Positions 14,253-31,756 of a DNA stretch of 42,095 nt are shown one piece after another (within the stretch, counting starts at the first letter, position 1; every line of letters starts with the position of its first letter). The stretch spans positions 1 through 42,095 of IMG/VR virus record IMGVR_UViG_3300005537_000037; one strand, given 5' to 3'. The notes beneath the pieces are model-generated. The model was not told the DNA's origin and ran no database searches. It saw only the letters and a program-made list of their open reading frames with translations. The stretch comes from a virus. Position numbers and translations under genes: made by a program.

Positions 14253-14594
14253 TTATTGGCTGGCACCCACAATTAGTGCAGAGGGCGCTTGCGGAAGAAT
14301 CCTCGCAGTGACTTGGTTCGATGGCAGGCTTTCCTGTCCATTCACAACCGTAGTCACCTGATAGCAGAAAGCTCCCACGGTGACAGTGGTGTCCGTGTAA
14401 GTGTTCACGGCAACGCCCGTTGTAATGGAAGCGAACACAGAACTCGTGGAACAGGCTCCCGCCGCGCGGTAGACAGTCACCAATCCGCCGTCAGTCGAAG
14501 CCGTCCAGTTCAGCGTCACGCTATGGGGCGCGGCCTGAGCCTGTGCCACGTTCGCAATCAGCACCAGCAATCCTGCAAGAATCAGTTTCTTCAT
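14253..14594 (-). CDS. Exported fibronectin type III domain protein (113 aa)
   Basis: ATG 14594 overlaps the previous stop (ATGA) behind GGAGG. A Sec signal (1 to about 20, ending NVAQA) is followed by one FnIII-like β-sandwich: HSVTLNWTAS, LVTVYRAAG, NTYTDTTV, CYQVTTVVNGQESLPSN. FnIII modules in phages are found on virion surfaces and bind sugars or proteins weakly. The export signal is unusual for a virion protein. Confidence 0.75.
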   Translation of the reverse strand: MKKLILAGLLVLIANVAQAQAAPHSVTLNWTASTDGGLVTVYRAAGACSTSSVFASITTGVAVNTYTDTTVTVGAFCYQVTTVVNGQESLPSNQVTARILPQAPSALIVGASQ

Positions 14595-14962
14595 TTCGCC
14601 TCCGGTTTGTAGTTCAAGTAATCGTGTATCCCGAATGCCGTCTGCGTTGCCGGAACCCAATAGGCCAGTCCGTAGCAGGCAGGTTTCGGGCCATCGTCCT
14701 TGTGGCACTTCTCGCTGGCAGCGATCATCGCGCCGCCCATGCCGATGGAAAACCAGTTGAACGCTCGGCGCGAGCCGTAGCCTTCGATGCAGCGTTCGAC
14801 ATCTCCACGCGAACAGTAGGTCGTCCCCTTGTACTGAACCGTGAAGGCTGCGGCCTCTGCGCCAACAGCGAACAGCAAACGTTTGTGGTGTTTGGCCCAG
14901 TTAATCGGCCCAGCTTGAGCCGGAGCCGCGAATAAAAGCAAAGCGAGAAGAAGAGGTTTCAT
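14591..14962 (-). CDS. Exported Cys-containing protein (123 aa)
   Basis: Start ATG 14962 overlaps the spike stop (ATGA). A Sec signal (LLLALLLFAAPAQA) is followed by NWAKHHKRLLFAVGAEAAAF, a hydrophobic region, then paired cysteines (YCSRGDVERC, KCHKDDGPKPAC). Gly- and Ala-rich helices (SIGMGGAMIAASE) suggest membrane contact. No family known. Together with neighbours it forms an exported cluster after the spikes. Confidence 0.65.
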   Translation of the reverse strand: MKPLLLALLLFAAPAQAGPINWAKHHKRLLFAVGAEAAAFTVQYKGTTYCSRGDVERCIEGYGSRRAFNWFSIGMGGAMIAASEKCHKDDGPKPACYGLAYWVPATQTAFGIHDYLNYKPEAK

Positions 14963-17208
14963 GGCGTAACGCATGTGATTTGAACTATCTCTGTGCTGCT
15001 GGCCGTGGGTGTGAGGCTGAAAGTAAAAGTGACTCCGGCTGTACTGAGGGCGGATGGCGTAAAAGTCCCATTCGCATTTGTCCCCCCAGTCTGAGTAGCG
15101 GAGCAAGAGAACGGAGCGACCAAATAGGGTGTGGGGAAAGTATAGGTGATGGTTGGGGAGGCTCCAGTCGAAGCAGACCCGTTCGTGATAGTGAATTGAA
15201 TGGGCGCATCGCCACCAGAAAGCGTTCCTACTGCCGCGCCTGTTCCCCAGTTTGCGCTGAGAACCAACTTGCCAGCCGTCACTGGAACAAAGTTGGCGTC
15301 TCCCGCTTCGTTGATAACCGCTCCGGCAACCACGGGAGCATGGCCCGTGCAGGTGTTCCCGCCGTTGCTTATATATGTGCCGCCTGCTTGCACATTCAAG
15401 CAGGCCGTGCTGGTTCCAGCGAATCGGGAGTTTACGGCACTTACTATGCCAGGAGAGCCTATGAAAATCCCGTTCAGATTTGCCGCTAAGGAAAAACGTA
15501 GATTCGTCAGGCGGGCGGTCCCTTGGATATTCGCCCCGTTATTATTTGAATTGCCCCCGAGGATGGAATCTCCGACTGAATCCCAAAAGCCGCCAGTATC
15601 CACCCCAACGACGCTTCTGCCTGCTCCGGCTTGGCCCAAATAGCAACTTGTGGTTGTCACCTGTGCGCTTGGGGCAATGTAGAGATTGGCGATGTTCGTC
15701 AGGCCGCCGATATTTGCGCCGTTGTTATCCCCAGCGAAACAATCATTAATTGTGTTGAATGGCCCCAGTCCGGCGTTCCGTACAACGATGCCTATTGCTC
15801 CTGCGCCATCTTCAATGATGTTTTCGATGTAGGCTCCTGGCCCTTCCATCTGAACGCCAATCAATGAATTGTCGGACGCTCCCCAGCAGCAGACTTGAAA
15901 ATCAATGAAGTTGTCGTCCGTGGAGGTGGTTATGATTGCAAAGGCATGGGTTCCGGTTGACGCTATTTCGCCACCTGAAATTGTAAGGTCTCGAATGGAT
16001 TTTCCTTGAATACCGAATGCACAAGATGGAACCGTACCTAGCCCCGTGCAGGTTCCGGTATAAGACCCAGCCGTAAAAGTCGGGGTGAAGATAAATCCGC
16101 TGTTATTCCGGCCAATGCCACGAATGACCATTCCCTGGTCGTTGAAATTCCCAATCGTGTACCTGCAAGTCGGTGTAGTATTACCGAACCCCTGTGCGTT
16201 GCCACTCACTCCAGGCTGAACGATAAACCAGCCCGTCACAAAAATCGTTGGGCATGGGCCTACTGTTCCGTAGGCGGCAGCTATGGCGGCTTGCACCGCT
16301 GTTGTAGCGTCCAAACCAAAATAGAATTGGCAGCCGCCGTTAGCCGTTAGCTGGCATGAGGCATTGCTGGTCGCATTTATCGGCGTCGTACAGGTTCCAG
16401 TTGTCGTACAAATGCTGGCAGTATTCCCGTTTACAGAATTGATGACTCCTTGCGTGATATATGCAAGAGATGAAGTTTTAACTGGTCCACCGGCTGCACC
16501 GCAGCAGGATACCCATGCGATTTTTCCGATATCAGCGGAAGTGAAAGTGTAGTTATTGCACGTCACGACGTTTGAGCCGGTGGTGATGCTGAGATTACCA
16601 TTGCTGCACAGATTGGCTTTCGGCGCTCCATAGGGGGCCACGCTTATATCAATGGTGTTATAATAGTTCCCCATAATCGACCAAGAATTTGCGTTTGGCC
16701 CGCAACTATAGACGCCAAACGGGGCAACGTTAAGCTGAGCAGGAGCCGTCACTCCCGGCGTACACGTCCCCGGCAGTGAAGAGACGGAAGAGATGCCGCC
16801 TCCGCTGCCCGCTGGCCCTGGAGGACCGATTAGCCCGGTATTCAAGCCTGTCGAGATCGTCACAACCGCTGTCCCCGAGGTATAGGCCGAGCAGCGCACC
16901 CGAATGTCCGTAAAGCCATTAGTGTTGTAAGTGGTGGTTCCGGCAGCGGAGAGCGTTGCTGCCGTAGCCCAAGTCTGGCCGCCATTGTTAGATTCTTCGA
17001 CAAGCAGAGTTGCGGTGAATGTTCCCGTGATCGCAACTGTTGAAATGTTTGCATTTGGAGGAAGCGGGCTTTCCCAGACACAGCTAGAGGGAACGGAAGT
17101 GCAATTAGTGGAAGTGGCCGAGATGTTTCCCGTTGCGGAGTTCTGTGCCGACAGGCTCCCGCTTGCCATCAAGCAGAAGATGGTGAGGAAAAACAGTTTA
17201 GTTTTCAT
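14959..17208 (-). CDS. Tail-spike-like β-helix protein with Sec signal (749 aa)
   Basis: ATG 17208 is chosen because it begins a clean Sec signal (LFFLTIFCLMASGSLSA, then QNS). After a β-rich region comes a collagen-like GPPGPAGSGGG, then a right-handed β-helix-like body with a pectate-lyase flavour (ISGGEIASTGTHAF, NFIDFQVCCWGASDN, YIENIIEDGAGAIGI) and a β-sandwich C-terminus. It has about two dozen cysteines, many paired (SCC, CTTTGTC). It probably binds or cleaves a surface polysaccharide. The signal peptide and cysteines suggest exposure to the periplasm at some stage. Confidence 0.8.
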   Translation of the reverse strand: MKTKLFFLTIFCLMASGSLSAQNSATGNISATSTNCTSVPSSCVWESPLPPNANISTVAITGTFTATLLVEESNNGGQTWATAATLSAAGTTTYNTNGFTDIRVRCSAYTSGTAVVTISTGLNTGLIGPPGPAGSGGGISSVSSLPGTCTPGVTAPAQLNVAPFGVYSCGPNANSWSIMGNYYNTIDISVAPYGAPKANLCSNGNLSITTGSNVVTCNNYTFTSADIGKIAWVSCCGAAGGPVKTSSLAYITQGVINSVNGNTASICTTTGTCTTPINATSNASCQLTANGGCQFYFGLDATTAVQAAIAAAYGTVGPCPTIFVTGWFIVQPGVSGNAQGFGNTTPTCRYTIGNFNDQGMVIRGIGRNNSGFIFTPTFTAGSYTGTCTGLGTVPSCAFGIQGKSIRDLTISGGEIASTGTHAFAIITTSTDDNFIDFQVCCWGASDNSLIGVQMEGPGAYIENIIEDGAGAIGIVVRNAGLGPFNTINDCFAGDNNGANIGGLTNIANLYIAPSAQVTTTSCYLGQAGAGRSVVGVDTGGFWDSVGDSILGGNSNNNGANIQGTARLTNLRFSLAANLNGIFIGSPGIVSAVNSRFAGTSTACLNVQAGGTYISNGGNTCTGHAPVVAGAVINEAGDANFVPVTAGKLVLSANWGTGAAVGTLSGGDAPIQFTITNGSASTGASPTITYTFPTPYLVAPFSCSATQTGGTNANGTFTPSALSTAGVTFTFSLTPTASSTEIVQITCVTP

Positions 17209-17215
17209 GGGATTT

Positions 17216-20200
17216 TCAGAAAGTCGCTTTCGCATAAATCGTGTATTGCGGAATCGGAGAGCATCCCGCAGAGTTCAGCACGCTGGTCGTGGTGTACGTG
17301 ACGGCGGTTCCAGCCTTGGCGACGATGGAAGTCGCTGTTGTCGTTCCAGTCGCCACGCCACTGTCCACCGCCCCATTTGCACTTATGCTCAACGTTCCTA
17401 GCGTAATCGTCTCCGCCGTATTGCCTGGGGCCGTCCATGCCAAAGTTGCAAAGACGGTGTTGGCTCCAGCCCCGCAACCGGCCCCTGCAAGACTCTGCGT
17501 GGTGGCGATGTTGACCGTCACCATCTGCGTCTGCGGCATGCTGGCAATAACCGTCTGAGTACTCAGATTCGTTCCAAAATTCGTTCCCGCGCTTGTCTGC
17601 ACGCCGCTGCCGAACGGATTGCCCGCAAGTGTGATCCCCGGCGTCGCAATCCCCTGCATCCCCGGCATCAGCATCGTCGGGCCACCGCTAGGCAATGCTC
17701 CGTTGCTCGCGAACGAGTTTAATGCGAAGGAACTCCATACAAGAGATGTCGTGCTGGCCGCGAGCGGGTCACCAAACGTGTTCGCCGCTGCAAATCCACT
17801 TGTACAATTCGTTCCATTCGAGACGCAGTAGTACAAATTCTGCGACTTGGGGTTGCCCGCGAATCCGCCCAGGTTGCTGATAGTGATGGTCTGGTTGCCT
17901 GTTGTCGTGGTGCAAGCGAGAGACGCTGGAGAATACGAACCTTCTCCGCCATTCTGCCACACAGGGACAATCACGAATTGGTAGGAACCTATTGCCAGCG
18001 AGCCACCGGCGCTGACCGCACAAGTCGGAGCGGAATGCGGCGCGCTGTTCACGAAGATGGGATAGTTCACTCCGGTTGAGAGGGCAGTATCGAAAATGTT
18101 GTTGCAGTATGTCGAATAGTTGGAGCCGAAAATCCCGTCGGATGCTCCGCCTTGACAAACTGGGCCAAATGCGCTGACGTTTGGGCTGACTTGGGGAGTA
18201 TTGCCAACCCCGCCAAGGATGTAAATGGGCAATCCTTCTACACCGGAGATCACAAGCCCATTAGCAGGAGATGATGGAGTGCAAACGCCGCCGCTCGGAA
18301 AAGCTACTGCGCCGGCTGAAGCGGCGAAGATGCACGGCTCTGCTATGGTATCTAGCGTAATTAGGTTGAGAATCGCGCCCCAGTTGTTAGTGTAACCAGA
18401 GAACGTGTACAGAGGAGTCGAGCCGCCGTTGATGTAGCTGTGGTCAATTTTCCAACCTCCACCCGATGCCACACCATTTATCTGGCCGCCACGGTGGACG
18501 TAGTAAGCCGACCGCACTTGCCCTTGCCCGCAGAGGTTGCAGTAGAAAACCGGAGTCTGCGAGCCGCTGTCGCTCACCGGACCGCCTGGAGCGAATCCAT
18601 CTTGGTCTATGATTACGTTCGTGGCCGATTGCCCCGCGCTGCCTCGCAGGTACAATCCGATGCCCATGTAATCGTTGTTGCCACTGCCGGTGAAGAAATA
18701 GTCCTGCGTGAACGCCATGTTGAAGCCGCCCTCGTAGAGAGCGCCGAGGATGCCATTGACGCTGCCTCCATTGCTGAAAGTGACTCCCTGCAAAACCACG
18801 CCAAATAGCAACGAGTTATAGAGTGCGGGGTGCGCGGCGTTAACAGAAATCGCCGGATTCCCACGCCATATGCCGGGGCCGCTTGTGTTGTTTCCAACCG
18901 CCGAGCGGTCGCCGTACCACTGGCACTTGCAGGCAATCGTCTCGTTGCTGTACAAGCCACCCGATTGCATGACGTTCACGTTTGGAAACGCCTGAACATC
19001 GATGTAGGAATTGATGGGGAATGAACCGCCGCTTGGGTCAATGGGAATGTAGACCGAACTCCCATTGGCGCTTGCCGCTGTGAATGCAGCAAGGAGTGCT
19101 GGGCCGCTCGAAAGCCGAATCGAGACCCCGCTGACCGACTGGCTTGCCGCGTTTGCTACGGTCAGAGTGGTGCTCCCACCGCCGCTGACAATCGTTGTGT
19201 TCAGGTTGCCGTTGACGGGGCTGCTCGGGGCCGTCGTCGGCACGTAGGCAGGAAAAATCTGGTTGTCCATCATCGGCGAGCCGAAGTCGTCGAATGTAAG
19301 GTCGGTATTCGTGCCCTGCGGCATCGAGCGCCCGATGAGCGCGAACGTGCCGGGATTCGCTCGGTCGCTGTAAATGAAATACTCCACCGCCGCAGACCCG
19401 CTGCTCGCCCATGTGATGTGGTTTGCGTTGTACCAAATCAGCACGCCGCCCGTGCTGGCCGTGCTCGCGCCTTGGCGCGTGTCCAGCGAGTCCAAATAGA
19501 CGAAGTGCGTGTTGTCAGCCGTCGAATTGACAACATGCCGCCCGTAGAAGCTGCCATCTGAGAGACTATTTCCCGCTCCGATTTTAATTTGCGCCCCAGC
19601 CACTAAGCCGTGCGCTGAAGCTGTAATGCACGTCACGACATTGTTGCTCCGCGAACAGGACGTGATGTTTACCTGCTGATTGCCGAGAGATGCTGCCCCG
19701 GTTGTCGTAGTCGCAACGGTGCTCGCGGCGGTCTGCCCGCCCAGCGCATCCCGCCCGGTCACTTTGTAGTTGTAGGTCGTCGCTCCCGTTGGCCCGTTGA
19801 CCACGATTCCGGTTCCAGTTCCCGCCTTGGCAAGCACCGGCGTTACCGTGACGGCTCCTGGCGTCGTGATGCTCGGCGTCGGTCCGCAGCCATATGCCGA
19901 AATTCCATCGCCGTTCACAAACGTGCTCGCCGAGGAAAGCGTCAGCGTCGTCGTCGTTCCACTGCAAGTGGCAGTTATTCCCGCTGCAATGGGAGCAAGG
20001 TTTACGTTCCCCGCCCGCGCCCCATAGCTCGTAATATCCACATACGGATTCGGCCCTTTGAAGCGAGCGTTGAGGCTTGTAGAAAAATTCGTTCCGTTGT
20101 CGGTCTCGGAGCACGCGGAGAACGTTAAGCCATTCGTGCATTGGAGGGTGCCGCTAGGCCCAGCGGGGAGACCGGATGCGCCACTGAGGGAAGGCAAAGC

Positions 20201-20599
20201 AATATAGTTTACTGTGGGGCTGCCGTACCCACCATAGATGTCAGCCCCTTGGTTCTGCGCCAAAACCAGTGTCACTGCTCCGTTAATCGTGCAATTGCTA
20301 CAGGTAATTGTCACCGTTCCGGCGCCGAGGTTAATAACAGAAAGCATCGTTCCTGGACCGAATCCCAAAGTCGCCCCACTTGGTAAGGTCACAGCTACGG
20401 GGCTGGCATTATTGAAAGTCGTGACCCGCGTGGTGTCGGCTGCTACAAACTGATAACTTGTACCTGTCTGAGCATTCGGCGTAGTCAACATTCTGGCGTT
20501 CGTCTGGGCGTAGCAAGCAGGGGATAGGGTAAACAGGCAGGCGAGCACAAACAGGCTGGCAGTGAGCGTTCTTGAGCGTTCTAGGGCTATCAGGAACAT
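17216..20599 (-). CDS. Large tail-spike/fibre protein with Sec signal (1127 aa)
   Basis: The start is placed at ATG 20599, giving a signal sequence ending in SPACYA before Q. The longer open frame would add 85 basic, low-quality residues. Residues up to about 130 share a module with the 450-aa fibre (T.NNA..VAVTLPSGAT..GFGPGT...NLGAGTVTI, QGADIYGG). VDITSYGA begins a pectin-lyase-like part. A middle region has an FnIII-like segment (YNYKVTGRDALGG), and β-rich repeats lead to a C-terminal sandwich. More than twenty cysteines are present (CSNC, CKC, CNLC). Likely a receptor-binding or depolymerase spike. Confidence 0.8.
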   Translation of the reverse strand: MFLIALERSRTLTASLFVLACLFTLSPACYAQTNARMLTTPNAQTGTSYQFVAADTTRVTTFNNASPVAVTLPSGATLGFGPGTMLSVINLGAGTVTITCSNCTINGAVTLVLAQNQGADIYGGYGSPTVNYIALPSLSGASGLPAGPSGTLQCTNGLTFSACSETDNGTNFSTSLNARFKGPNPYVDITSYGARAGNVNLAPIAAGITATCSGTTTTLTLSSASTFVNGDGISAYGCGPTPSITTPGAVTVTPVLAKAGTGTGIVVNGPTGATTYNYKVTGRDALGGQTAASTVATTTTGAASLGNQQVNITSCSRSNNVVTCITASAHGLVAGAQIKIGAGNSLSDGSFYGRHVVNSTADNTHFVYLDSLDTRQGASTASTGGVLIWYNANHITWASSGSAAVEYFIYSDRANPGTFALIGRSMPQGTNTDLTFDDFGSPMMDNQIFPAYVPTTAPSSPVNGNLNTTIVSGGGSTTLTVANAASQSVSGVSIRLSSGPALLAAFTAASANGSSVYIPIDPSGGSFPINSYIDVQAFPNVNVMQSGGLYSNETIACKCQWYGDRSAVGNNTSGPGIWRGNPAISVNAAHPALYNSLLFGVVLQGVTFSNGGSVNGILGALYEGGFNMAFTQDYFFTGSGNNDYMGIGLYLRGSAGQSATNVIIDQDGFAPGGPVSDSGSQTPVFYCNLCGQGQVRSAYYVHRGGQINGVASGGGWKIDHSYINGGSTPLYTFSGYTNNWGAILNLITLDTIAEPCIFAASAGAVAFPSGGVCTPSSPANGLVISGVEGLPIYILGGVGNTPQVSPNVSAFGPVCQGGASDGIFGSNYSTYCNNIFDTALSTGVNYPIFVNSAPHSAPTCAVSAGGSLAIGSYQFVIVPVWQNGGEGSYSPASLACTTTTGNQTITISNLGGFAGNPKSQNLYYCVSNGTNCTSGFAAANTFGDPLAASTTSLVWSSFALNSFASNGALPSGGPTMLMPGMQGIATPGITLAGNPFGSGVQTSAGTNFGTNLSTQTVIASMPQTQMVTVNIATTQSLAGAGCGAGANTVFATLAWTAPGNTAETITLGTLSISANGAVDSGVATGTTTATSIVAKAGTAVTYTTTSVLNSAGCSPIPQYTIYAKATF

Positions 20600-21049: not shown

Positions 21050-22402
21050 TCAGAAAGGTCCTTCTAGTCGGATGTGGATTGCGTACTGCATCGGAGTTGC
21101 TCCCGAGGAAACATAACCCGCTGTTGAATACTGAATCGCCACACCATTTTTCGCGAAAAAGCCTCCACTGAACGGATTCAGGCTCGGATTCACTTGGCCG
21201 ATCGTGTTTCCTGTGCTGGGATTTGTGATCGCAATGGTTTCTGCCACACTCGAATCAGCGTCCGTATACGTGACTTGACATTGAGGAAGCGTCGAACTTG
21301 TCGTCGCTGCTTGCGTCACGACGAGATAACAAGACATGCGGTAAAACCCGTTGGCGCTGGGCGTAATGATCGTCGTGGCTGAGATATTCGCTGCTTGCGT
21401 CGTCAAATTCACGGCTCCAGCTATCGGAGCGCCGCTCCCTGTCCCCTTCTGCGTTTCGTAATTCGTACCGTCGCTGTAGATATCTGCGCCTTGGCCTGTG
21501 ACTAGGACTAAAGTTGCTGTACCATCAATGGTGCTCGTCGCTGGCGTGATGGTTACTGCGCCCAGTCCCAGATTGCGAACGTGGAACTGCGTTCCTGCGC
21601 CGAAGCCTGTCGTAGTCGCCTGTGGGAGCGTGACGGCGATAGCGGCAGCGTTCGAGAACGTAATGAGTTTCTGCTGGTCTGAGGCAGCAATCGTGTAGCT
21701 GACGCCCGTCTGACTATTTACGCCATTGATCGGAGGAACATCCGCTGCCTGAATCGTGCCGTCCACGTACTGCGTCCCATTGTTGCGGGGATAATGGCCC
21801 GCCGTGTTTGTCGAGTTCTTCAGTGTGTTCGCGGAGATGTCGATGGTTTTGTTTGTGAGCGTCTGAATCCCGGTGTAACTAACGATGCAGTCCCAGAACG
21901 TGACGAATTCTCGGATACAGCCAAGGTCTGACCTATACCCAAGTTCCCCCGCTGCGCCTGTCGGATCGCTTACCACGGCGCCGAAAGTTATGTTTTGAAT
22001 GTTGTTCAGGATTTGGTAGGCGGAAACGTTGTCAGTACACCACTGCTGAACGAGCGAAGAGTTGTACCCGCAGAATTTGTATGACTGATTGGAAAGCCAG
22101 ATGCCTGTCTGCGTTGAGCCGTTGGAAGGGGCGCCGGTTGCGTCCAGCGGAATCGGCCAAGCATTTATGATTGAGCCGGTGCTGTCGGTGTAGGTGTCTT
22201 GGCGCGTCGTTGTGCCTGCTTGGTAGGTGTAGACGAAGCCTCCGGCCAAGACTTTGCCCGTTGCGTCGAGAAACTGCGGATGCACGGACGGCGCGAGGGC
22301 GACCGGGATTTGGGCCTTGCCGGAAAAAACGCAGGCGAGTAGAATAAAACCAATGCTGCACGCCTTTGCAACCATCCTCGTTATTTTCGTGCTCATGTTC
22401 AT
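21050..22402 (-). CDS. Tail fibre/spike with head-binding domain and Sec signal (450 aa)
   Basis: Start ATG 22402, with GGAGA nine bases upstream. Residues 1-30 form a signal sequence (FILLACVFSGKA, then Q). Residues about 40-130 are a typical podovirus head-binding domain: QFLDATGKVLAGGFVYTYQA, TTRQDTYTDSTG, PIPLDATGAPSNG, GIWLSNQSYKF. Then come NKTIDISANTLKNS, the shared module (IAVTLPQAT..GFGAGT, GQGADIYSDGTNY), and a β-sandwich C-terminus. In known phages this N-terminal domain docks on the tail, which is hard to reconcile with export. Confidence 0.85.
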   Translation of the reverse strand: MNMSTKITRMVAKACSIGFILLACVFSGKAQIPVALAPSVHPQFLDATGKVLAGGFVYTYQAGTTTRQDTYTDSTGSIINAWPIPLDATGAPSNGSTQTGIWLSNQSYKFCGYNSSLVQQWCTDNVSAYQILNNIQNITFGAVVSDPTGAAGELGYRSDLGCIREFVTFWDCIVSYTGIQTLTNKTIDISANTLKNSTNTAGHYPRNNGTQYVDGTIQAADVPPINGVNSQTGVSYTIAASDQQKLITFSNAAAIAVTLPQATTTGFGAGTQFHVRNLGLGAVTITPATSTIDGTATLVLVTGQGADIYSDGTNYETQKGTGSGAPIAGAVNLTTQAANISATTIITPSANGFYRMSCYLVVTQAATTSSTLPQCQVTYTDADSSVAETIAITNPSTGNTIGQVNPSLNPFSGGFFAKNGVAIQYSTAGYVSSGATPMQYAIHIRLEGPF

Positions 22403-22425: not shown

Positions 22426-23940
22426 TCAGGGCGCTGTTTGCTGTAATCGCTTTAAGAGTTCGTAGCCGCCGAAGGCCGCACCCATACCCGGTCCCGCGAC
22501 TCCCAGAAGTTTCTTCAAGGCAGCTAGGTTAAACGCGCTGCTCGAAGGCAGCGGGGTGTACGGTGAGGAGATTGGCATCGCGGGCACTGCTTCTTCCGCT
22601 TTCTGAACTGCGGTCTTTGGCGGACTCCATTTCCCTGCCATGTACTTCCCGGTGTTCTGTCGCACAGTGTCCACTGCTTGCGCCAAGTCCCCGTAGTGCA
22701 TGTCCACGGTTTTCATGCCGGGGACCGCATCATGCAGGTCATTCGAGACAGCGCTGTAGATCGCACGCCCGATGCCCCTCAAAGAATCCACTGTTGCATT
22801 GGGACTGAAATTCGCATCATTTCTAAGTGCTTGGCGGAGCGCAAGAGTCTGCGTCGGCGTAGCTTTACGAATATCGGCAATGCCTAACTCTTGCTGATGG
22901 CTATTGATAATCTCCATTGCTTTTTCTTGCAGCCCAGGGTCCTTGACTTGGTTTTTAATTACACCTGTAACGGATTTCCCGGCGTCCAAGGTGATTCCCT
23001 GCTCCGTCGCTTTGTCGGCGGTTGCCTGAACTGCTTTCCCCGCAGCCTGAAAGCGCGGGCCTATAGCAGCGGCTTGCTCTGGCGGCGTCATCTTTTGCAG
23101 CGCTTCTGTCGTGAAGCCTTCCGCTTCGAGGCCGCGTCCTGGAATCCCATAGGCGTTCTCGATGTTGGCCGAGCCTTTGGCGATACGGATGGCTTTCGCG
23201 CCAGTCGTGCCGATGGATTGATTCAGGTCGCTCCAGTTTCCGAGTTGACCTTGTGGCTGTGCAGCTTTCACGGCGGCGACGTTGGCTTGCCCTTCTGCAA
23301 CTGCCTGAGCGCCTTTCTGCTCAACCGCCAGATAGCGGGCAAGGTTCGCATTCTTTGCTTCTTCGAGAGCCTTTGTATAGCCCGTGACATTGTTCCAAAA
23401 ATCCCCGAGTTTTTCAGCGGCAGGAGCGAGGAGTTTCTTGCCCATCGAAGAAAGGGCGGACGTGGCAAGCTCGGCGGCAGGTTGAAGAACAGTCGCTGCC
23501 GCTCCCGTCTGTAAAGCCTCTTTCGGCGTTGCACCGCCAGCAAACGCGCCCGTCCCACTGCCAACCCCTGTGGCCAATGCACGAAGCGCCATTGTTGGGG
23601 CCGTCCCGCCTGCCATCGCGCCCGCTGCCGCTCCAGCAAATTCCCCCGATGATTTCTGATAAGCATTTTGCACGTCCGCTGTCTTTGCAGTCGGCGGCAA
23701 ATCCAAATCATTTCGCAAGCGAAGCTGAGACTCGCTCTGGCCGGCTACTGCTTGCGCCGTAGGCGTTCCGAGGTTTACGCCAGTTAGGTGCGCAATGTAG
23801 CCTTTTTGACTTTCCGGGTCCATGCCGCTGAAGTTCTTATCGACATGCGACAAATATCCGCGCTGCTGGTCTAATGTCATGGCGCGAAAGGTCGCGTCCT
23901 TTGAGAGCGCGTCGTAATCTACTTGGGGCGTGTCGGCCAT
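22426..23940 (-). CDS. Ejection (DNA transfer) protein, gp16/gp20-like (504 aa)
   Basis: A long helical protein in the ejection slot before the spike genes. The N-terminus (RGYLSHVDKNFSGMDPESQK) has small repeated motifs, then come Ala/Gly-rich helices (GEFAGAAAGAMAGGTAPTMA, ATGVGSGTGAFAGG) that may insert in membranes, and long amphipathic helices. No signal sequence. In P22 the corresponding proteins leave the virion and form the trans-envelope channel. Confidence 0.75.
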   Translation of the reverse strand: MADTPQVDYDALSKDATFRAMTLDQQRGYLSHVDKNFSGMDPESQKGYIAHLTGVNLGTPTAQAVAGQSESQLRLRNDLDLPPTAKTADVQNAYQKSSGEFAGAAAGAMAGGTAPTMALRALATGVGSGTGAFAGGATPKEALQTGAAATVLQPAAELATSALSSMGKKLLAPAAEKLGDFWNNVTGYTKALEEAKNANLARYLAVEQKGAQAVAEGQANVAAVKAAQPQGQLGNWSDLNQSIGTTGAKAIRIAKGSANIENAYGIPGRGLEAEGFTTEALQKMTPPEQAAAIGPRFQAAGKAVQATADKATEQGITLDAGKSVTGVIKNQVKDPGLQEKAMEIINSHQQELGIADIRKATPTQTLALRQALRNDANFSPNATVDSLRGIGRAIYSAVSNDLHDAVPGMKTVDMHYGDLAQAVDTVRQNTGKYMAGKWSPPKTAVQKAEEAVPAMPISSPYTPLPSSSAFNLAALKKLLGVAGPGMGAAFGGYELLKRLQQTAP

Positions 23941-25455
23941 TTACGGATTAGCGCCCTTCTTTTGCTGCGCGAGCCAATCGGCGGGAGAAAGAACTTTGCC
24001 CTTACTCTCCGCCTCCGGCGCAGAAGTTGCGCCCAATCGCGCTTTGATGTCCTCAATCTGTTGCTGGTAGCTTACGTGCCGGTTGCTCATGTCCTGCTTG
24101 AGCGTGTCCGCAAGGTGCATGATCTGGCCCACTGTTGCGCTGGCGGGAATGAACGAAGCAACTTCTTTTCGTGCGGTGTCCGAAAGCTGCCCAGCCAGCC
24201 CCGGCGAGGACGTAACTTTCGCAATCTCGTTCACGGCAACTTGCCGCGCGGCCTCGAATGATGCTTGGTCCTTTGACCCAAGCATTCCAGCCGCGCTACG
24301 TAGCGGAGCGTTTGCGAGCGGAATCCCGGTGTCGATGGCTTTCTTGGCAAGCCCGGTGAACATATCGAGGTTCTTGATTGCCGTGCTCTCGAACGCGCTG
24401 ACTTGGTCGAGATTCGCTTGGAGTTTGGAGAGCGAAGCTTGATTCGCTTTGTATTCTGCCGAGTTTGCGGCGAGCGATTCCCCTGGATGGAGTTCATTTG
24501 CGCGGTTCATTATGGCCTTGTTGAAGGCCAAAGCAGGGCCACCCCTGCCAGTGGGAGGTAATGTCCCAGTGGATCTGTATTTTTCGGCCTGCTGGTCGAA
24601 AGCAGCTTGGGTCATTCCGAATTGCTTCGCTACATCGGCAGGAGAAGCCCCGACACCAGTATTGTTCATTAACTGGAAGTTGTAGGCCGGGACGATCTTT
24701 TTCATTGCGATTGTGTAGTCGCTGAAACCTTTGTTTTCATTCCCCGGCTTTGTTTTCCAATCGGCATAGCTAATGTTTTCGGCGGGGACACCCGGCGCTC
24801 CCACGCCAGGATGCTGCTGATACCAGAGGGCTTCCTGCTTCTTGGCGTTGGCGGTTTGTAAGGCTTCCTCGCCTTTGTTTTGCGCCTGTATCGTTTCCGC
24901 CGCCTCTTTCCGCTTGTCCTGCTCCTGCTTGAGATAGGCTTCTTGAAGTCCGAGTGCGACGCCGTGCTGCTGGAGTTGCTGCTTCGTCAGCGGTTGGTTC
25001 GGGTCTACTTTGGCGTTGTTGCCGGGGATGCTGTTGAACTGTTGCGAGATCGCAGGCCACTGCTTCGCTAAATCCTCATCCGATAGTCCGGCAACGTTGC
25101 TGTAAATCTTCTGCTGCTGGTCATGGACTTTCTGGAAGTTGTCGAGTTCCGCTTGTGTCGCCTGCGCGTGCTTCTGGCGGATCGAAGCATCGGTGTCCAG
25201 AAGGCTCGTATAGGTGGGCAGCGAAATTTTCCCCTTGAGGGCCGTCGCGGCATCGGAAAAAGTGTCGTTGGGATTTTCCTGCATGTGCTGCATGACTAAT
25301 TTTTGGTCTGCTACTTTTTGCTGCTCTAGGGCGAGTTGCTGCTGCTGAATCTGCTGGCCCTGCATCATGGACTTCAACGCAAGCAGTCGCTGAATCCCCG
25401 CCGTTGGGTCTTGCGGAGGTTGAGCACTCAGAGCTGGGAGAGGTATCGAGCCCAT
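23941..25455 (-). CDS. Ejection (DNA transfer) protein, gp20-like (504 aa)
   Basis: Gln-rich helical protein: LALKSMMQGQQIQQQQLALE, then coiled-coil-prone segments (AELDNFQKVHDQQQKIYSN) and a C-terminal domain with NMSNRH-like helices. Ala and Gln dominate, as in ejection proteins. It begins one base after the previous stop and shares its length (504 aa) with the next gene by coincidence. Assignment rests on composition and synteny. Confidence 0.72.
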   Translation of the reverse strand: MGSIPLPALSAQPPQDPTAGIQRLLALKSMMQGQQIQQQQLALEQQKVADQKLVMQHMQENPNDTFSDAATALKGKISLPTYTSLLDTDASIRQKHAQATQAELDNFQKVHDQQQKIYSNVAGLSDEDLAKQWPAISQQFNSIPGNNAKVDPNQPLTKQQLQQHGVALGLQEAYLKQEQDKRKEAAETIQAQNKGEEALQTANAKKQEALWYQQHPGVGAPGVPAENISYADWKTKPGNENKGFSDYTIAMKKIVPAYNFQLMNNTGVGASPADVAKQFGMTQAAFDQQAEKYRSTGTLPPTGRGGPALAFNKAIMNRANELHPGESLAANSAEYKANQASLSKLQANLDQVSAFESTAIKNLDMFTGLAKKAIDTGIPLANAPLRSAAGMLGSKDQASFEAARQVAVNEIAKVTSSPGLAGQLSDTARKEVASFIPASATVGQIMHLADTLKQDMSNRHVSYQQQIEDIKARLGATSAPEAESKGKVLSPADWLAQQKKGANP

Positions 25456-25456
25456 T

Positions 25457-25753
25457 CTACTGTTGCCCCAAAAGCATCATAAGTGCGCGAAGGTTGCCGA
25501 AATTGCCTTGTGGCATTCCCGGCGACTGCATCGGAACTGTAGTCTGACCGGGCAGCCCTGAATAAATCGGTGCTCCGCCATCCGCCATTGGCGGGCGGCC
25601 CCCCCAGCCTTGCGCCGGTCCCGGCATTGGTCCGCCATAAGTATGTGGTGCCACGCCAACGGGTAGACCTATGGGATGCGGCATTCCGCCAGTAAGACCG
25701 TGCAGCGCCGCGAGGTTCGCGAAATTCGGATTGAAATTGAAGTTGGGAAGCAT
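25457..25753 (-). CDS. Pro/Gly/Met-rich small virion-region protein (98 aa)
   Basis: Asn/Phe-rich N-terminus (NFNFNPNFANLAALHG), then Pro/Gly-rich, disordered (GGPMPGPAQGWGGRPPMADG), and a Leu-rich end. It lies between two ejection-type genes. It is likely a small virion or assembly protein of unknown role. Confidence 0.6.
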   Translation of the reverse strand: MLPNFNFNPNFANLAALHGLTGGMPHPIGLPVGVAPHTYGGPMPGPAQGWGGRPPMADGGAPIYSGLPGQTTVPMQSPGMPQGNFGNLRALMMLLGQQ

Positions 25754-25754
25754 G

Positions 25755-26555
25755 TTATGTGAGAAAATCAGGGCTGAGATAATTTGGAGTTACGTCCGAA
25801 AAGCTGCCACCGCCTCCAAGGAGTTTCTGCATCATGAGCAGATTCATGATGTTGCTCGTCCCGCCGCCAAATGCGTTTCCTGCGCCCACGTAGCCTGATG
25901 CCTCTGCCGCCGCCGCGTTTTGAATGTCTTGCCCCTGTTGGGCTCCGGTCGTGAGGAAGATGTTTCCAACATTGCCTGCTGCCGCTTGTCCTTCTTGCCC
26001 GAGAGTGTTTGCCGCCGTCTGTCCTGTCCCTGAAAGCGCCGCCAGCCGGTTGAGGATGTCGTTGTGTTGCCCGTACCGCTGGAGGTATTGCTGAAACGCT
26101 TGGTTATAGACGTTCGTGTAATCGCTCTGCGCCGACTGCTGCCCGTAACGCGCGAGTGCCTCTTGTGTGTTGCCGGAGTAGAGAGCGCCTTTTGCGGCGG
26201 CAGAATTTTGCAGCGCCTGTTCGCCTTGCTGCTCTTGGAATTGATAGCCGGGATATTGCGCCGCTTCCTCTGCGGTTGGCGGCTTGAAAGTTTCGTCCCA
26301 ACCCTGCCCCGGTTCCGCGAGAATCCCTTCTAAGTTGCTGAGTGCGCCTTTACCCGCTGAAAGCCACGGCGCAAGATTCGCTTGCTGGGTGTTCCATTCC
26401 TGTTTTTGGAAGTCGAGCGCATTCTGGGCTTCTTGGGCTTGGAGTTCGGCGGCGCTCCTTGCTGCTCCTGCTTGCTCACCTCCAGCCATAAGGGAAGTAG
26501 CCCCGCCGATTCCAGCGGCTGCGAGACTCCCTCCAACGATAGCTGCTGTGCTCAT
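25755..26555 (-). CDS. Ejection/DNA-transfer protein, gp7-like (266 aa)
   Basis: ATG 26555 overlaps the acetyltransferase stop (ATGA). The N-terminus is a Gly/Ala hydrophobic stretch (AAIVGGSLAAAGIGGATSLM), then a Gln/Ala-rich helical body (AAELQAQEAQNALDFQKQEW, YNQAFQQYLQRYGQ). This pattern is found in podovirus gp7-type DNA-transfer proteins and related tail proteins. It probably interacts with the host membrane during injection. Confidence 0.78.
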   Translation of the reverse strand: MSTAAIVGGSLAAAGIGGATSLMAGGEQAGAARSAAELQAQEAQNALDFQKQEWNTQQANLAPWLSAGKGALSNLEGILAEPGQGWDETFKPPTAEEAAQYPGYQFQEQQGEQALQNSAAAKGALYSGNTQEALARYGQQSAQSDYTNVYNQAFQQYLQRYGQHNDILNRLAALSGTGQTAANTLGQEGQAAAGNVGNIFLTTGAQQGQDIQNAAAAEASGYVGAGNAFGGGTSNIMNLLMMQKLLGGGGSFSDVTPNYLSPDFLT

Positions 26556-26974: not shown

Positions 26975-26978
26975 GGGC

Positions 26979-27218: not shown

Positions 27219-27433
27219 TGATTGACTCCTATGCAGACATACAAAAAGTTTCCATCCTGCTCCAACCCTTGAATTTGCAGCGGCGTTCCCGCTGAACCGC
27301 TGGTTTTCGGCGCTCCGCTATTCGAGAGCCATTGCTGCACCGTCTCAAGCCATCGCCTGAAGAAAAAGACAGGCTCGCCATTCTTGTCGATGATGACTGT
27401 TCCCGGAGGGGCTGGCGGTTGGAATTTAGGCAC
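27188..27433 (-). CDS. Small tail-region protein (81 aa)
   Basis: GTG 27433 overlaps the stop of the gp10-like gene. A Pro-rich N-terminus (VPKFQPPAPPGTVIIDKNGE) leads to FFRRWLETVQQWL and a β-rich C-terminus. Similar small genes lie after the gp10 gene in other podoviruses. It could be a tail closure factor, but it is too short for the P22 gp26 needle. Confidence 0.6.
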   Translation of the reverse strand: MPKFQPPAPPGTVIIDKNGEPVFFFRRWLETVQQWLSNSGAPKTSGSAGTPLQIQGLEQDGNFLYVCIGVNQWKRIPLNNF

Positions 27434-29273
27434 GCTTCGCCATCTCCGTCGCGAGTCGTGACGCTGGCACGGGGTCTGAATCGGTGAATAGGTATGCGTC
27501 GATGATTTTCCAGTCGGCGGCGTCTTCCATCGAGATTTCATAGACCCGGTCGCGGGCTTGCCCGAGCCTTCGCCAAATCACGCGCTTGGTATATTCCCCG
27601 CCCTGCCCACAATCGCGGTCAATTCCGTCTGACCATGTATGCCCGCCGTCGTTCGACCATTTGAGCGTCATGAGCGGCCCGCGTCCCACAATCCCTTGCG
27701 GGATAGCTACGAGGTCGCCGATACCCCCGCCAAAGTTCACTAAGTTGAGCGTCCAGTTTTGATCTCCGAGGATGCTTACGAACGGGATAGAAACGGGATT
27801 CGAGTCAATGTAGTTCGCTTGCAACGTGGCTGAGATAACCCCCAAGGCGCTGATTTTGATTTGCCATGAAGTTGTATTGCCTTCGTCGTTGATGAAGAGT
27901 GTTTGCGCGGAGGAAATATCTCCCGCAGGATTCAGCGGCGCTTGCAGGATGCCGTTCTCGCCCATCTGCAGGCTGCGCAGATTCCCGTTTGCGTCCAGCA
28001 TGGGAATGATTGTGGGCACGGCTGCGCCTTGAAACTGTGGCCCTAACCCCGTTTCCACGGGCACTTGCAAGTAATCATGGAAAATGCGGGCTTCCTCTTT
28101 TGCGATGTGCGGTGCACGCCGCACGCGGCGAATAACGTTTCCGAAGTCGCTCAGAATGGCACTGGATTGCTGATACACAATGCCGGTGGTCGGATCACCG
28201 ACAAGGTGCCCGCCGAAAGCCGGGTTGAACGTATGGCAGAATGCCCGATGCATCGTAAAGACTCCGGGCTGCGGATTCCAGAAACCTTTTTGCAGCCACT
28301 GTCCGGTTGCCACGTCGAAAGCCCAGGTCTTCTGTGCGGTGGGGAAATTGAGCACAACAAAAGTGTGGCCTTGTTCCTGATAGGAATAGGTCACAAGGTC
28401 CGCGATTGTTGGATAGGTGCTCCACTCATATTCCATCGCGTGAGTCGAAACGCGCTGCGGGGTGTAACCGTTGGCCCGCCAGAAGATACCGGAGCCGCGC
28501 TCATCCTGCCCCATCCAGAAGATGCTATTGTCGGCTTTCACCGGAGAGGCTGGCGCCGCGATGCCCTGCTCGATCTTCGCCCCTTGAATCACGTCATAAG
28601 GGAATGGGAAGTTCCCCGAATCATAGTAGGGCTGTGTCGCGGTTGCGCCGAACACCCATAGCAACCGCTGATTGTCAAAGATGGCAGAGACGTTGCCGGG
28701 AAACACAGAGACAGCGGTTTGCGCTACTCCCTGCCAGGTGGAGCCGTCGCCTGGATTCGATGCTTGAATCTGATTCGAATTGACAAAAGAGACAAAGAAG
28801 AAGCCATCCGCATAACGCACTTGGGCGGGCACTCCGAGCAAGCCCAAACCTGTCGCGTTGTTAAAGGGCTGGACGGGAGCAAAAGCATTCGTGGCCAGCG
28901 TGAAGACGTACAGATTCCCTGCGCTCACGATGAGCACTTGCGTGTTGCTTGCCGCCATGTAGACGGAATTCCCGTCGTTTACCACCACGCCGCGGTTGAT
29001 GAAGTTCGGAGCGGCGTTTGGCGCGAGAAGCTCATTGAACTGTGTGCCTGCCACTGCGAACGTGCGCCCTAGAATCGTGAGCAATCCATTCCCGCGAAAG
29101 CCCGCCGCACCGACGTTGTAGAGTTGCTTCAACCCTGGTGTCCGATACAGCGCCGCAGTAGACTTCCCCATTCCGCTCTCGATGTTCTCCATGTAGAGAT
29201 TCATCAAGACTTGGCAATCAGCGCTGACTGACTGCGAACGGTAGGCCGGACCGATCAGTCCGAAGCGTCCCAT
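27426..29273 (-). CDS. gp10-like tail hub / DNA stabilisation protein (615 aa)
   Basis: Starts FGLIGPAYRSQSVSADCQVL, then MNLYMENIESG and LYRTPGLKQLYNVG, the pattern of packaged-DNA stabilisation protein gp10 in P22-like phages. The body is β-propeller-like (AMEYEWSTYPTIADLVTYSY, HTFVVLNFPTAQKTWAFDVA). The C-terminus includes SNDGGHTWSDGIDRDCGQGG and VIWRRLG. It should form a ring below gp4 and close the portal. Its position two genes after the gp4-like gene supports this. Confidence 0.85.
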   Translation of the reverse strand: MGRFGLIGPAYRSQSVSADCQVLMNLYMENIESGMGKSTAALYRTPGLKQLYNVGAAGFRGNGLLTILGRTFAVAGTQFNELLAPNAAPNFINRGVVVNDGNSVYMAASNTQVLIVSAGNLYVFTLATNAFAPVQPFNNATGLGLLGVPAQVRYADGFFFVSFVNSNQIQASNPGDGSTWQGVAQTAVSVFPGNVSAIFDNQRLLWVFGATATQPYYDSGNFPFPYDVIQGAKIEQGIAAPASPVKADNSIFWMGQDERGSGIFWRANGYTPQRVSTHAMEYEWSTYPTIADLVTYSYQEQGHTFVVLNFPTAQKTWAFDVATGQWLQKGFWNPQPGVFTMHRAFCHTFNPAFGGHLVGDPTTGIVYQQSSAILSDFGNVIRRVRRAPHIAKEEARIFHDYLQVPVETGLGPQFQGAAVPTIIPMLDANGNLRSLQMGENGILQAPLNPAGDISSAQTLFINDEGNTTSWQIKISALGVISATLQANYIDSNPVSIPFVSILGDQNWTLNLVNFGGGIGDLVAIPQGIVGRGPLMTLKWSNDGGHTWSDGIDRDCGQGGEYTKRVIWRRLGQARDRVYEISMEDAADWKIIDAYLFTDSDPVPASRLATEMAKRA

Positions 29274-29276
29274 TTT

Positions 29277-29483
29277 TTACCGTTGCACTCCTATTGCGTC
29301 AATCATTTGCGGATTCGGTTGGCAAGTCCAGCCCGCCCATTTCACTTCTGGAACGTAGTAGCCGTCAGGACATTCCCAATGCCCTTCGTCGTATTCGCTT
29401 TCAACCCAGCGCGGTTCTGGATTCGGCGCACGATGCCCAATGCACCCGCAAAGCAGGAGTGCCAGCGAGAATAGGCTTTTCAT
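29277..29483 (-). CDS. Small lipoprotein inside the tail operon (68 aa)
   Basis: ATG 29483 follows the gp4 stop directly. The signal ends in the lipobox L-C-G-C with Cys14. The mature part (RWVESEYDEGHWECPDGYYV, then VKWAGWTCQPN) has two cysteines and many aromatics. A lipoprotein between gp4 and gp10 genes is unusual. It may be a superinfection-exclusion or spanin-type factor. Confidence 0.65.
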   Translation of the reverse strand: MKSLFSLALLLCGCIGHRAPNPEPRWVESEYDEGHWECPDGYYVPEVKWAGWTCQPNPQMIDAIGVQR

Positions 29484-30257
29484 TTACTCCCGCATACCCG
29501 TCAAGAAATTAAAGTCCGGTCTCCCACCCTTGCGACTGTTCGGGCTTCCATCATCCGTGTCAATTCGCGGCGGCTTGTCGTTGTTACCTTCAATAATCCG
29601 CATGGCCTCTCTGTGCATCTCTTTCAGGTCTGCGGAGAAAGGCCGGTTGAATACGGGCGAGAGTTTCCGCGCGAGACTCAGCACCGTCGCATCCCAATAC
29701 CCCGGAGGCAGTTGCAGTGTGACGTTCGGAGAAATAGGCTGTGCGATGGAGTTCCACATCTCAAGCCGCACTGGATTTGCCACGTTGCAGATTGGCCAGA
29801 AGTTGAGATTCCCGAGCGGAGTGGAAGGGTCGTAGTAGAGATGCGTAACAATGGAAGAAACCAACGACTTTGTGGGGTTGGAGTTCCACCACGCTTCGTC
29901 CTTGATGCGGATTTGCGGCGAGTCGATTGGATTGGAACTTCCAGAGTTAAGGATAAAGTTTGCGCCGACGATCTTCACGGGCCGGAGCGGGATGTTGAAA
30001 TCGCCATTCGGCCCGATGGTGTGTGGTGCGTGGTTCGGAATTAGGTTGAACAGCAAAAACGAAATGGAGTAAATCAGCTCCCGCCGCGCATTCACTTGGT
30101 CAATCCAGCGTTGCAGCCTTGGCATGCCGACGCTGAGGTCGCCCGCCGAAACCTTCTCGCCTTCGGCAATGACGCCGATTTCTTCTAAGGCTCCCTGAAC
30201 AATGTCAGAGGCCAGCGCTGCTACCGCGTTATTTGTGTTCGTGAATGCGACGGTCAC
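29484..30257 (-). CDS. gp4-like tail accessory protein (257 aa)
   Basis: GTG 30257 overlaps the previous stop. Helical N-terminus (ASDIVQGALEEIGVIAEGEK), then SVGMPRLQRWIDQVNARREL, then IGPNGDFNIPLRPVKIVGAN, RLEMWNSIAQPI and LPPGYWDATVLSLARKLSP. This is the usual layout of the P22 gp4-type DNA-stabilisation protein, which binds below the portal. The expected neighbours (coat upstream, gp10 downstream) are present. Confidence 0.85.
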   Translation of the reverse strand: MTVAFTNTNNAVAALASDIVQGALEEIGVIAEGEKVSAGDLSVGMPRLQRWIDQVNARRELIYSISFLLFNLIPNHAPHTIGPNGDFNIPLRPVKIVGANFILNSGSSNPIDSPQIRIKDEAWWNSNPTKSLVSSIVTHLYYDPSTPLGNLNFWPICNVANPVRLEMWNSIAQPISPNVTLQLPPGYWDATVLSLARKLSPVFNRPFSADLKEMHREAMRIIEGNNDKPPRIDTDDGSPNSRKGGRPDFNFLTGMRE

Positions 30258-30649
30258 TTGGCGGCTTTAGCTTTGGCCTTTGGCCCATAGAGGCCGGGAG
30301 ACTTCGGAACCGCTTTCGGGATGTAGGGCTCTTTCACCCAGCCCTCTTCCATCGCGGCTTTGAGTTCGGCTTCATCCTTGACGATCTTCGTCAGATGCTC
30401 TGCCGGCAACACTTCTGTCCCGACGAGTTCGAACTTGTCATTGCGATGCTCGATTTCCTGAAATGGCTCGTTGGGATGCATGTAGACGACGCGCGGGAAG
30501 TCCATGTGCGGAATCTGTCGCACTGGCAAGCCCTGCCCGACAGTGCCCTGCCAGTTTTCAGGCAACGGGTCAGGAACTAGCTCTTGGGGACGCCCCACAA
30601 TCGTCTGCATTTGCTTCTTTAGCGCTTCTTCGTGAATTGCAAAACCCAT
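30254..30649 (-). CDS. Conserved phage head/neck protein (131 aa)
   Basis: Segments PRVVYMHPNEPFQEIEHRN, HLTKIVKDEAELKAAMEEGW and VKEPYIP are familiar from proteins encoded near coat genes of podo- and siphoviruses. The C-terminus is Lys/Ala-rich. ATG 30649 has GGAGG at short spacing. Molecular role unknown; possibly head completion. Confidence 0.7.
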   Translation of the reverse strand: MGFAIHEEALKKQMQTIVGRPQELVPDPLPENWQGTVGQGLPVRQIPHMDFPRVVYMHPNEPFQEIEHRNDKFELVGTEVLPAEHLTKIVKDEAELKAAMEEGWVKEPYIPKAVPKSPGLYGPKAKAKAAK

Positions 30650-30706
30650 TACGCCTCCAAACTAAGATGTGCGGGCGCAGCCGAAGCCACGCCCGCAGTT
30701 GAATTG

Positions 30707-31756
30707 TTAGAAAATCCCGAAATACGGGCCGACCGCTGTGGTGAACGTGGTCGGGACGGTGATGGTCGCGGGAACAGTGCCGAAAGTTCCGGCAATCGAC
30801 TTGGTGAGGTACTGGTCTTGCGTCTGTGTTACCAGCATCCTCACCGTCGCCGTGGTGCCGTTGGACTGCGTGCAAGCGAAATACTGCGCAGGCCCAACAG
30901 CGTAGTACGGCGTGGTGAAGGAGATTTGCTGATAGTTCGATGCAGTTGCGGCCAGCACTCCAGCGGTAGCTGAGTTAGCCAGAAGGGTGCCGCCGCTGTC
31001 ATAGAGAGCCACAAGGTGGTTGTCCGTACCGACTACGGTGCCGTTCAGGACCGCAAGCCCGGTAATCAGCTTCGAGTAAGGAAGCTGAATCTCCGTGCAA
31101 AATAGCGTTCCTGCAACTGGCGCTGTGCCCGTGCCGTTAATCGACGTATAAATTACGGCACCGGGTTGAGGCGCATACAGCACCTTGGAATGGTTGCGTG
31201 TAGTCTGCGCCGCATCGCCATTGATCCACTGACCGCCAAGGCAATCGGAAATCGTTCCCGAACTGAATTGGATGCGAGGCAAAAAGAGTTCATTTGTCCG
31301 CGTGCAACTCCCTTGGGGAAACGATGGTCCTTGCGGCCCGGAGTCAGCGCCGCCGCCAGACCATACCCCGATAGCACTGGCCGGAACCACGAGCACCAGA
31401 GCGCCCGAAGCATGAGAAACCGTGGCGGTCCCGCCCATACCGCGAATCACGGTAATGGTGGTTCCAGAAACGGCCTTCACTTGCATAAGTTCACGGTCAA
31501 TGTAGAGGTACGACTGCGCGTCAGAAGTGGCGATTAGCCCAGAGGTAAAGCTGGTATTCGGTGCCGGGGCGCTGATGCCCGTAGCCGAGGCAACAGTGAG
31601 AATGCTCATGTTGCCAGTGGGCGTAGCGCCGTTCACCGAACCCATGCCCTGGAGAGCCGACGAGAGTGTGGTATTGACGAGCATGTTCTGTGCGCCAGCA
31701 AACGACGCACAGAACAGAAGGACTGCAAAAAGCAGTGTTAGTTTTTTGATGTTCAC
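30707..31756 (-). CDS. Exported β-rich protein after the coat gene (349 aa)
   Basis: GTG 31756 starts two bases after the coat stop, with GGAG upstream. The N-terminus is a Sec signal (LLFAVLLFCASFAGA, then Q). The N-terminal domain (TGLIATSDAQSYL-type strand, YIDRELMQVKAVSGTTITVI, RGMGGTATVSHASGAL) resembles a phage surface domain seen in tail or decoration proteins. The C-terminal sandwich (AVLNGTVVGTDNHLVALYDS, YAVGPAQYFAC) may bind sugar. Its position suggests a head-decoration or fibre protein. Confidence 0.75.
   Translation of the reverse strand: MNIKKLTLLFAVLLFCASFAGAQNMLVNTTLSSALQGMGSVNGATPTGNMSILTVASATGISAPAPNTSFTSGLIATSDAQSYLYIDRELMQVKAVSGTTITVIRGMGGTATVSHASGALVLVVPASAIGVWSGGGADSGPQGPSFPQGSCTRTNELFLPRIQFSSGTISDCLGGQWINGDAAQTTRNHSKVLYAPQPGAVIYTSINGTGTAPVAGTLFCTEIQLPYSKLITGLAVLNGTVVGTDNHLVALYDSGGTLLANSATAGVLAATASNYQQISFTTPYYAVGPAQYFACTQSNGTTATVRMLVTQTQDQYLTKSIAGTFGTVPATITVPTTFTTAVGPYFGIF

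Follow-up and report, generated by a model that had tools for sequence, protein, structure and literature searches.

Textbooks describe the morphogenesis of tailed phages as taking place in the cytoplasm, with spikes as the last component added there, and, to our knowledge, all known P22-type tailspikes assemble in the cytoplasm. Sec-dependent export has been described for phage proteins of another kind, such as lambda Lom, the Rz/Rz1 spanins and the T5-type exclusion lipoproteins, which are not virion spikes. In addition, phages of Porphyromonas gingivalis encode five exported proteins, of unknown function, that follow the Q-rule (PMC10367356), a term that refers to the presence of Gln at position +1 in the signal peptidase I substrates of Bacteroidetes (PMC5837995). 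No report of Sec-exported tailspikes was found in a literature search in which subscription papers were thinly covered. A preliminary description of the DNA studied here had stated that no described phage is known to carry this set of export signals; none was found, the P. gingivalis phage proteins being the nearest precedent.

The IMG/VR record analyzed is a whole virus record of 42,095 nt that was used entire (hereafter, the window), and its genes are named by their start position on it (e.g., 22402 is the gene at 21050..22402, minus strand). By its matches to PHROGs, the window is a P22-like podovirus. A single late operon holds the P22-type portal, scaffold, coat, and gp10-like hub genes (phrog_156, phrog_8865, phrog_283, and phrog_578), and the order of the P22-like genes in relatives is similar to that of the window. 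The components of this core are listed below; the names of genes 30257 (gp4-like), 25455 and 23940 derive from position only.

39775-38291, terminase (PHROGs)
36309-34201, portal (PHROGs)
33985-33044, scaffold (PHROGs)
31759..33000, minus strand, major coat protein, signal-less internal control (phrog_283, E 2e-47)
29484..30257, minus strand, gp4-like adaptor, signal-less internal control (named by position)
27426..29273, minus strand, gp10-like tail hub/head-closure protein, signal-less internal control (phrog_578, E 4e-85)
22426..26555, minus strand, ejection-protein genes 26555, 25455 and 23940, devoid of signals (one assigned by phrog_598, the rest by position)
26555-25755, the gp7-like ejection protein among them (phrog_598)

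All three ejection-type proteins are cysteine-free in the window and in its relatives G003, G004, G005, and G016. Outside this core, a two-gene recombination module, formed by a YqaJ-type exonuclease and an ERF-type annealing protein, was observed at 7098-8557. Degenerate Ala-Trp-Asp-Ala-Ala-Arg repeats form a long stretch of the protein encoded at 8705-9778, and a tandem array with 12/24-base periodicity lies within its gene at 8784-9104.

The window shares with P22-like podoviruses the head, portal, hub, and ejection gene set, and also a tailspike head-binding domain of the P22/Pam1 type, located in 22402. In contrast to those phages, the head-binding protein and the other large late surface proteins of the window start with Sec signals and are Cys-rich, with even counts; the absence of export signals from spikes, a trait of P22-like phages, was not observed here, as the candidate spike genes are all signal-bearing. 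The genes with predicted signals are the following (a slash marks the predicted cleavage site):

30707..31756, minus strand, 31756, candidate for a virion-surface protein, its gene immediately following that of the coat; signal predicted at 31691-31756, VNIKKLTLLFAVLLFCASFAGA/Q
29277..29483, minus strand, 29483, small putative lipoprotein with an LLCGC motif, its gene flanked by those of the gp4-like and gp10-like proteins
21050..22402, minus strand, 22402, candidate fibre/spike protein with a C-terminal fibre region; predicted signal 22313-22402 (...GKA/Q)
17216..20599, minus strand, 20599, large spike-like protein of 1127 aa; predicted signal 20507-20599 (...CYA/Q)
14959..17208, minus strand, 17208, spike/fibre-like protein of 749 aa; predicted signal 17146-17208, MKTKLFFLTIFCLMASGSLSA/Q
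14591..14962, minus strand, 14962, small protein of 123 aa with a predicted export signal and 4 mature Cys
14253..14594, minus strand, 14594, small protein of 113 aa with a predicted export signal and 2 mature Cys
13702..13965, minus strand, 13965, putative lipoprotein (LALVGC) with a TTG start, possibly lysis-related
12480..12986, minus strand, 12986, predicted exported protein of 168 aa whose mature chain is Cys-free

The preliminary description had assigned Sec signals to seven late genes (31756, 22402, 20599, 17208, 14962, 14594, and 12986), with A-x-A before Gln in several of them, and lipoprotein signals to 29483 and 13965. Translation confirmed the seven N-termini, all seven have an A/G-x-A-type site followed by Gln, and both lipoprotein N-termini are present at their starts, 13965 being the least certain of the nine signals. 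Signals were scored with a home-made classifier, different from SignalP, that combines the von Heijne prokaryotic matrix with the charge of the n-region and the hydropathy of the h-region. Clean passes were obtained for 31756, 20599, 17208, 14962, 14594, and 12986; the matrix score of 22402 was 2.9 against a threshold of 3.5, yet this protein has a plain GKA/Q site and passes a relaxed rule. The features expected for Sec and signal peptidase I (a positive n-region, an uncharged h-region, and small residues at -3 and -1) are present, 22402 being borderline by the matrix, and the predicted mature N-termini start with Gln at +1 (e.g., QIPVALAPSVHPQF..., QNMLVNTT...). The classifier was passed by 0 of 36 other plausible genes of the window, and the sole extra positive was gene 1093, a third putative lipoprotein that weakly matched an Rz-like spanin in PHROGs. 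This gene, together with 13965, 29483, and perhaps 12986, may belong with Lom, the spanins and the exclusion lipoproteins, unlike 22402 and 31756, which have virion-type domains. The C-terminus of 12986 (...INFTF) shows, by eye, a terminal-Phe pattern similar to that of outer-membrane beta-barrels, and the protein is possibly Lom-like.

Ribosome-binding sites are good upstream of 31756, 22402, 14594, 12986, and 29483, and weak upstream of 20599, 17208, 14962, and 13965. A downstream restart skipping the signals is nevertheless unlikely, because later starts are absent, poorly placed, or unconserved: gene 17208 has no start codons from codon 14 to 90, the first start past the signal of 22402 is a GTG at codon 40 that borders the conserved domain and lacks a ribosome-binding site, and relatives of 31756 do not conserve its ATG at codon 25. 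A downstream-start reading was rejected for 22402 and 20599, as was a lipoprotein reading of the LLAC and VLAC motifs contained in their respective signals. In the case of 22402, neither the lipobox nor its Cys is conserved: LLAC occurs in the window only, and the relatives, which do not fit a lipobox, have a signal peptidase I site followed by a conserved Gln.

The preliminary description had also placed one of the signals before a podovirus head-binding domain. This gene is 22402, whose domain spans approximately residues 41-130 of a protein with six mature Cys; its profile matches PDB 7eeq, annotated as tailspike head-binding domain (E 1.5e-11), which we take to be from cyanophage Pam1, as well as the 9vyg tail spikes (E 1.4e-9). 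The structure model of 22402, confident at residues 41-130 only, was left out of the fold search; in this model C111 and C122 are located one in each strand of a predicted hairpin of the domain. For the AF2 model of 31756 (pLDDT 78), the top matches were PDB 9jwb chain Z (4e-6), which belongs to the capsid asymmetric unit of cyanophage A4, and mycobacteriophage tail-tip fibres. Its fold also resembles that of Anabaena phage A-4L protein A0A059PYA7 (Foldseek E 1e-5), the matches to A-4L and A4 being partial alignments of ~200 aa at 14-16% identity, and in BFVD the model matched phage fibre or minor-tail proteins. The C-terminal part of 31756 is DUF4082-like, under the Pfam cut-off. These structure matches, along with the position of the gene directly after that of the coat, suggest that 31756 is a head-surface or fibre protein.

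The two remaining large proteins, 20599 and 17208, are candidate spike-like proteins on the basis of their size, their position, and a module near the mature N terminus of 20599 that is common to residues 229-309 of 22402. The mature chains of 20599 and 17208 contain 22 and 25 Cys, respectively, the latter being the single odd count in the window, and the N-terminal part of 17208 is common to signal-bearing genes of relatives. Neither protein matched an informative family in Pfam, PHROGs, NCBIfam, or solved structures; the large signal-bearing proteins in general gave no informative family match in Pfam and PHROGs, and tblastn of 31756 and 17208 against 50,697 public phage records yielded no match.

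Relatives of the window were collected through the terminase (80 found with TerL), the hub protein (1 found with a gp10-like single-protein search), and the 31756 protein (73 found with its alignment), and whole records were laid out where possible. An alignment of the head-binding domain was dropped as a scanning query since it was too diverse. The resulting census comprised 98 records and 2,348 genes. Genes for head, hub, and packaging proteins were called signal-bearing in 3 of ~350 cases: TerL 0/33, portal 0/57, scaffold 0/28, gp7 0/37, gp20 0/11, coat 1/70, gp4 1/73, and gp10 1/55. On the other hand, signals were called in 53 of 65 members of the 31756 family, in 15 of 34 head-binding-domain proteins, and in all 8 proteins similar to 17208. 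It has to be noted that the 31756 set was gathered through 31756 itself, so that 53/65 is a biased estimate of frequency; the contrast with the neighbouring core genes stands. In the window, G003, G004, G005, and G016, all large late genes directly past the ejection genes are signal-bearing, and the coat, gp4-, gp10-, and ejection-type genes are signal-free. As regards conservation, which the preliminary description had proposed to examine in related phages, signals of the 22402 and 31756 types are kept throughout a broad clade. Within the clade of the window, the signals of head-binding proteins are diverged and functional-looking; those of L193, L194, and L196, near-identical to one another, were missed by the classifier and recognized by eye.

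Chance hydrophobic N-termini or wrong starts in ordinary cytoplasmic phage proteins might account for the calls, and the weak ribosome-binding sites at 4 of the 9 starts would be consistent with this. Such an artefact is nonetheless extremely improbable: the classifier gave 3 false positives at 20155 internal in-frame M/V/L positions of core proteins (0.015% per start-like position), the signals are conserved in dozens of diverged relatives, and both the lack of usable downstream starts and the Cys parity described below argue against it. Judged from these alignments and counts, the signals are not due to chance.

Relatives without signals, which the preliminary description had considered a possible refutation, do occur in a sister group; what is missing from them is the whole signal segment, and no bypass through a downstream start was observed. 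A signal-less head-binding protein that starts near the predicted mature end was found in 15 relatives, among them the sister phages G006, G007, G010, G012, G013, G017, G018, G022, and G029 and the public records OR003940, MW202483, and MW202674, in which the protein has its own Met near the predicted mature N-terminus. Signal-less homologues of 31756 are present in G003, G016, L177, and L210. In the coat-protein tree, in which L193, L194, and L196 are wrongly labelled, signal-bearing phages extend over deep branches and signal-less ones occupy a few others. G006 (the record of locus L019) is mixed, two signal-less head-binding proteins adjoining a signal-bearing one (5735-8551) with 918 mature residues and a single Cys; the latter may represent an intermediate or a separate acquisition. 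G003 (the record of locus L011) encodes at 46785-51062 a late protein of 1425 residues that contains 42 cysteines and starts with a short signal (MWKLLPILLLAVTATA/Q), for which family searches gave no match.

Even numbers of cysteines are favoured by the extracytoplasmic proteins of many bacteria (PMC7678975), and a control set of exported E. coli proteins showed 10 even and 2 odd counts. Among mature signal-bearing phage proteins with any Cys, the count is even in 128 of 139 (p about 1e-26), and it remains so in 70 of 80 when one protein is taken per cluster at 40% identity (p about 1.6e-12), with counts that reach 60. In core structural proteins, even and odd counts are as frequent as expected by chance (131 and 139, respectively), and the Cys density is 0.67 per 100 aa vs 1.8-2.0 in signal-bearing mature chains. 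When the Cys of the signals are also counted, the pattern collapses (even in 92 of 146): chains whose signal contains an odd number of Cys are even in 43 of 49 cases as mature forms and in 6 of 55 as precursors. The parity is present in the mature chain only, and therefore export is supported and, indirectly, so are signal removal and the mature form being the functional one. In signal-bearing 31756 homologues the four mature Cys (C151, C172, C220, and C295) are nearly invariant, and they are absent from the signal-less proteins of L177 and G003; a shortened homologue in L180 keeps the signal and the C151/C172 pair and lacks the C220/C295 region.

Conservation of Gln after the cleavage site was observed in 39 of 41 members of the 31756 family and in 11 of 13 head-binding proteins; when all phage signal proteins with a length of 160 aa or more are taken together, 89 of 116 have this Gln. 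The cleaved ends would possibly carry pyroglutamate. The same measure gave 32/44 for a Granulicella plasmid, compared with 5/17 in E. coli and 2/8 in Sinorhizobium. These values point to a host with a preference for Gln at +1. The Granulicella tundricola plasmid (L219-L223, L228-L230; Acidobacteriota) shows a Q-rule-like preference outside Bacteroidetes. An Acidobacteriota host was first favoured on GC content and Gln at +1, and this proposal was countered by the Granulicella exported proteins, whose Cys parity is random (17 even, 19 odd). Other approaches to the host were of limited use: no 31756 homologue was found in 395 Bacteroidota genomes, in a search run without a positive control, a TerL search of GTDB contigs detected only six metagenome-assembled genomes (Alphaproteobacteria, Dechloromonas, and Bacteroidetes), and plasmid searches gave nothing useful.

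The parity and Gln data bear on whether the signals are removed. The hydrophobic N-terminus could be retained, for instance as a membrane or assembly anchor, with spikes attaching in the cytoplasm as the known P22-type tailspikes do. We consider this quite improbable, because the counts are even only once the signal is removed, cleavage sites are followed by a conserved Gln, and orthologues that lack a signal have their start close to the mature N-terminus; moreover, a heavy enrichment in even-numbered Cys is hard to reconcile with a reducing cytoplasm. Export and cleavage of the outer proteins are strongly supported by these sequence patterns. The preliminary description had left three alternatives: display of exported proteins on the infected cell, attachment to virions outside the cytoplasm, or uncleaved signals. 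Export is strongly supported, retention of the signals is disfavoured, and attachment is favoured over display because 22402 has a head-binding domain and other spike genes are missing: in the window and its relatives, no large spike or fibre gene was found besides the signal-bearing ones.

Display would mean that the exported proteins stay on or around the infected cell as non-virion components, with roles such as receptor or surface blocking, superinfection exclusion, or release of free capsule-degrading spikes. Signals and Cys parity would suit any exported protein, the genome further encodes small products that lack a virion domain (three exported proteins and two to three lipoproteins), and the exported Q-rule proteins of the P. 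gingivalis phages could be taken as a parallel; like the proteins described here, they have Sec signals and expose Gln upon cleavage by signal peptidase I. However, in the window the signals sit on a virion-surface module with a tailspike head-binding domain, and this domain occupies in 22402 the place where several sister phages have a signal-less version. Furthermore, the fold of 31756 resembles those of phage capsid and tail surface proteins, and display of the full set would leave virions with no receptor-binding protein. On balance, display is an unlikely reading.

The best explanation, which we regard as reasonably probable, is that surface proteins are exported, cleaved, and oxidized, and then joined to virions at lysis. 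The sequence shows the signals and their conservation, head and hub genes that are free of them, the Cys parity of mature chains, and the head-binding domain; that the host does export and cleave the proteins, that disulfides form, and that attachment takes place outside the cytoplasm is what we infer. According to this model, 22402, 20599, 17208, and 31756 would be synthesized as Sec precursors that cross the inner membrane and are cut before Gln by signal peptidase I, and the mature proteins would fold in the periplasm with disulfide bonds. Heads with hub and ejection proteins would assemble and package in the cytoplasm as usual. Upon opening of the membrane at lysis, periplasmic surface proteins and tailless virions would meet, and the head-binding domains would then fix the spikes to the tail. 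Joining is placed at lysis because capsid, hub, and ejection proteins stay unexported and the compartments mix only at that point. The in vitro assembly of P22 heads with tail parts (Israel et al. 1967, a reference of PMC3741392) makes late joining plausible.

A mixed set that complements this explanation is credited with a similar, fairly good probability: 31756, 22402, 20599, and 17208 would be exported virion proteins, and 14962, 14594, 12986, 29483, and 13965 may be ordinary envelope or lysis proteins of types well known from phages, acting in lysis, at the outer membrane, or in exclusion. The second group is small in size, includes lipobox motifs, and lacks virion domains; against this division, a small signal-bearing gene similar to 14594 adjoins the spikes in G016 and its Cys count is even, so that it could be a spike accessory.

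Several observations run against the best explanation. The sister group has apparently similar spikes without export signals, and therefore this architecture can be built without export; the Cys count of 17208 is odd; 31756 homologues without a signal exist in G003, G016, L177, and L210; the spike assignment of 20599 and 17208 is positional; and exported proteins of Granulicella, a candidate host type, lack parity. Altogether, the P22-like virus group of the window, which is large and uncultured, probably finishes its virions outside the cytoplasm. As to the fuller proposal, that this lineage secretes, cleaves, and disulfide-bonds its head-surface protein, fibre, and spikes and adds them during or after lysis, we see the case as evenly poised.

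If this proposal is true, a lineage that exports and oxidizes its spikes would alter the textbook view of tailed-phage morphogenesis, and it would explain how very Cys-rich, disulfide-stabilized spikes are made. In addition, annotation in which a signal peptide counts against assignment to the virion would misread this group. Whether virions can be completed at lysis from two cell compartments is made a testable question by these observations.
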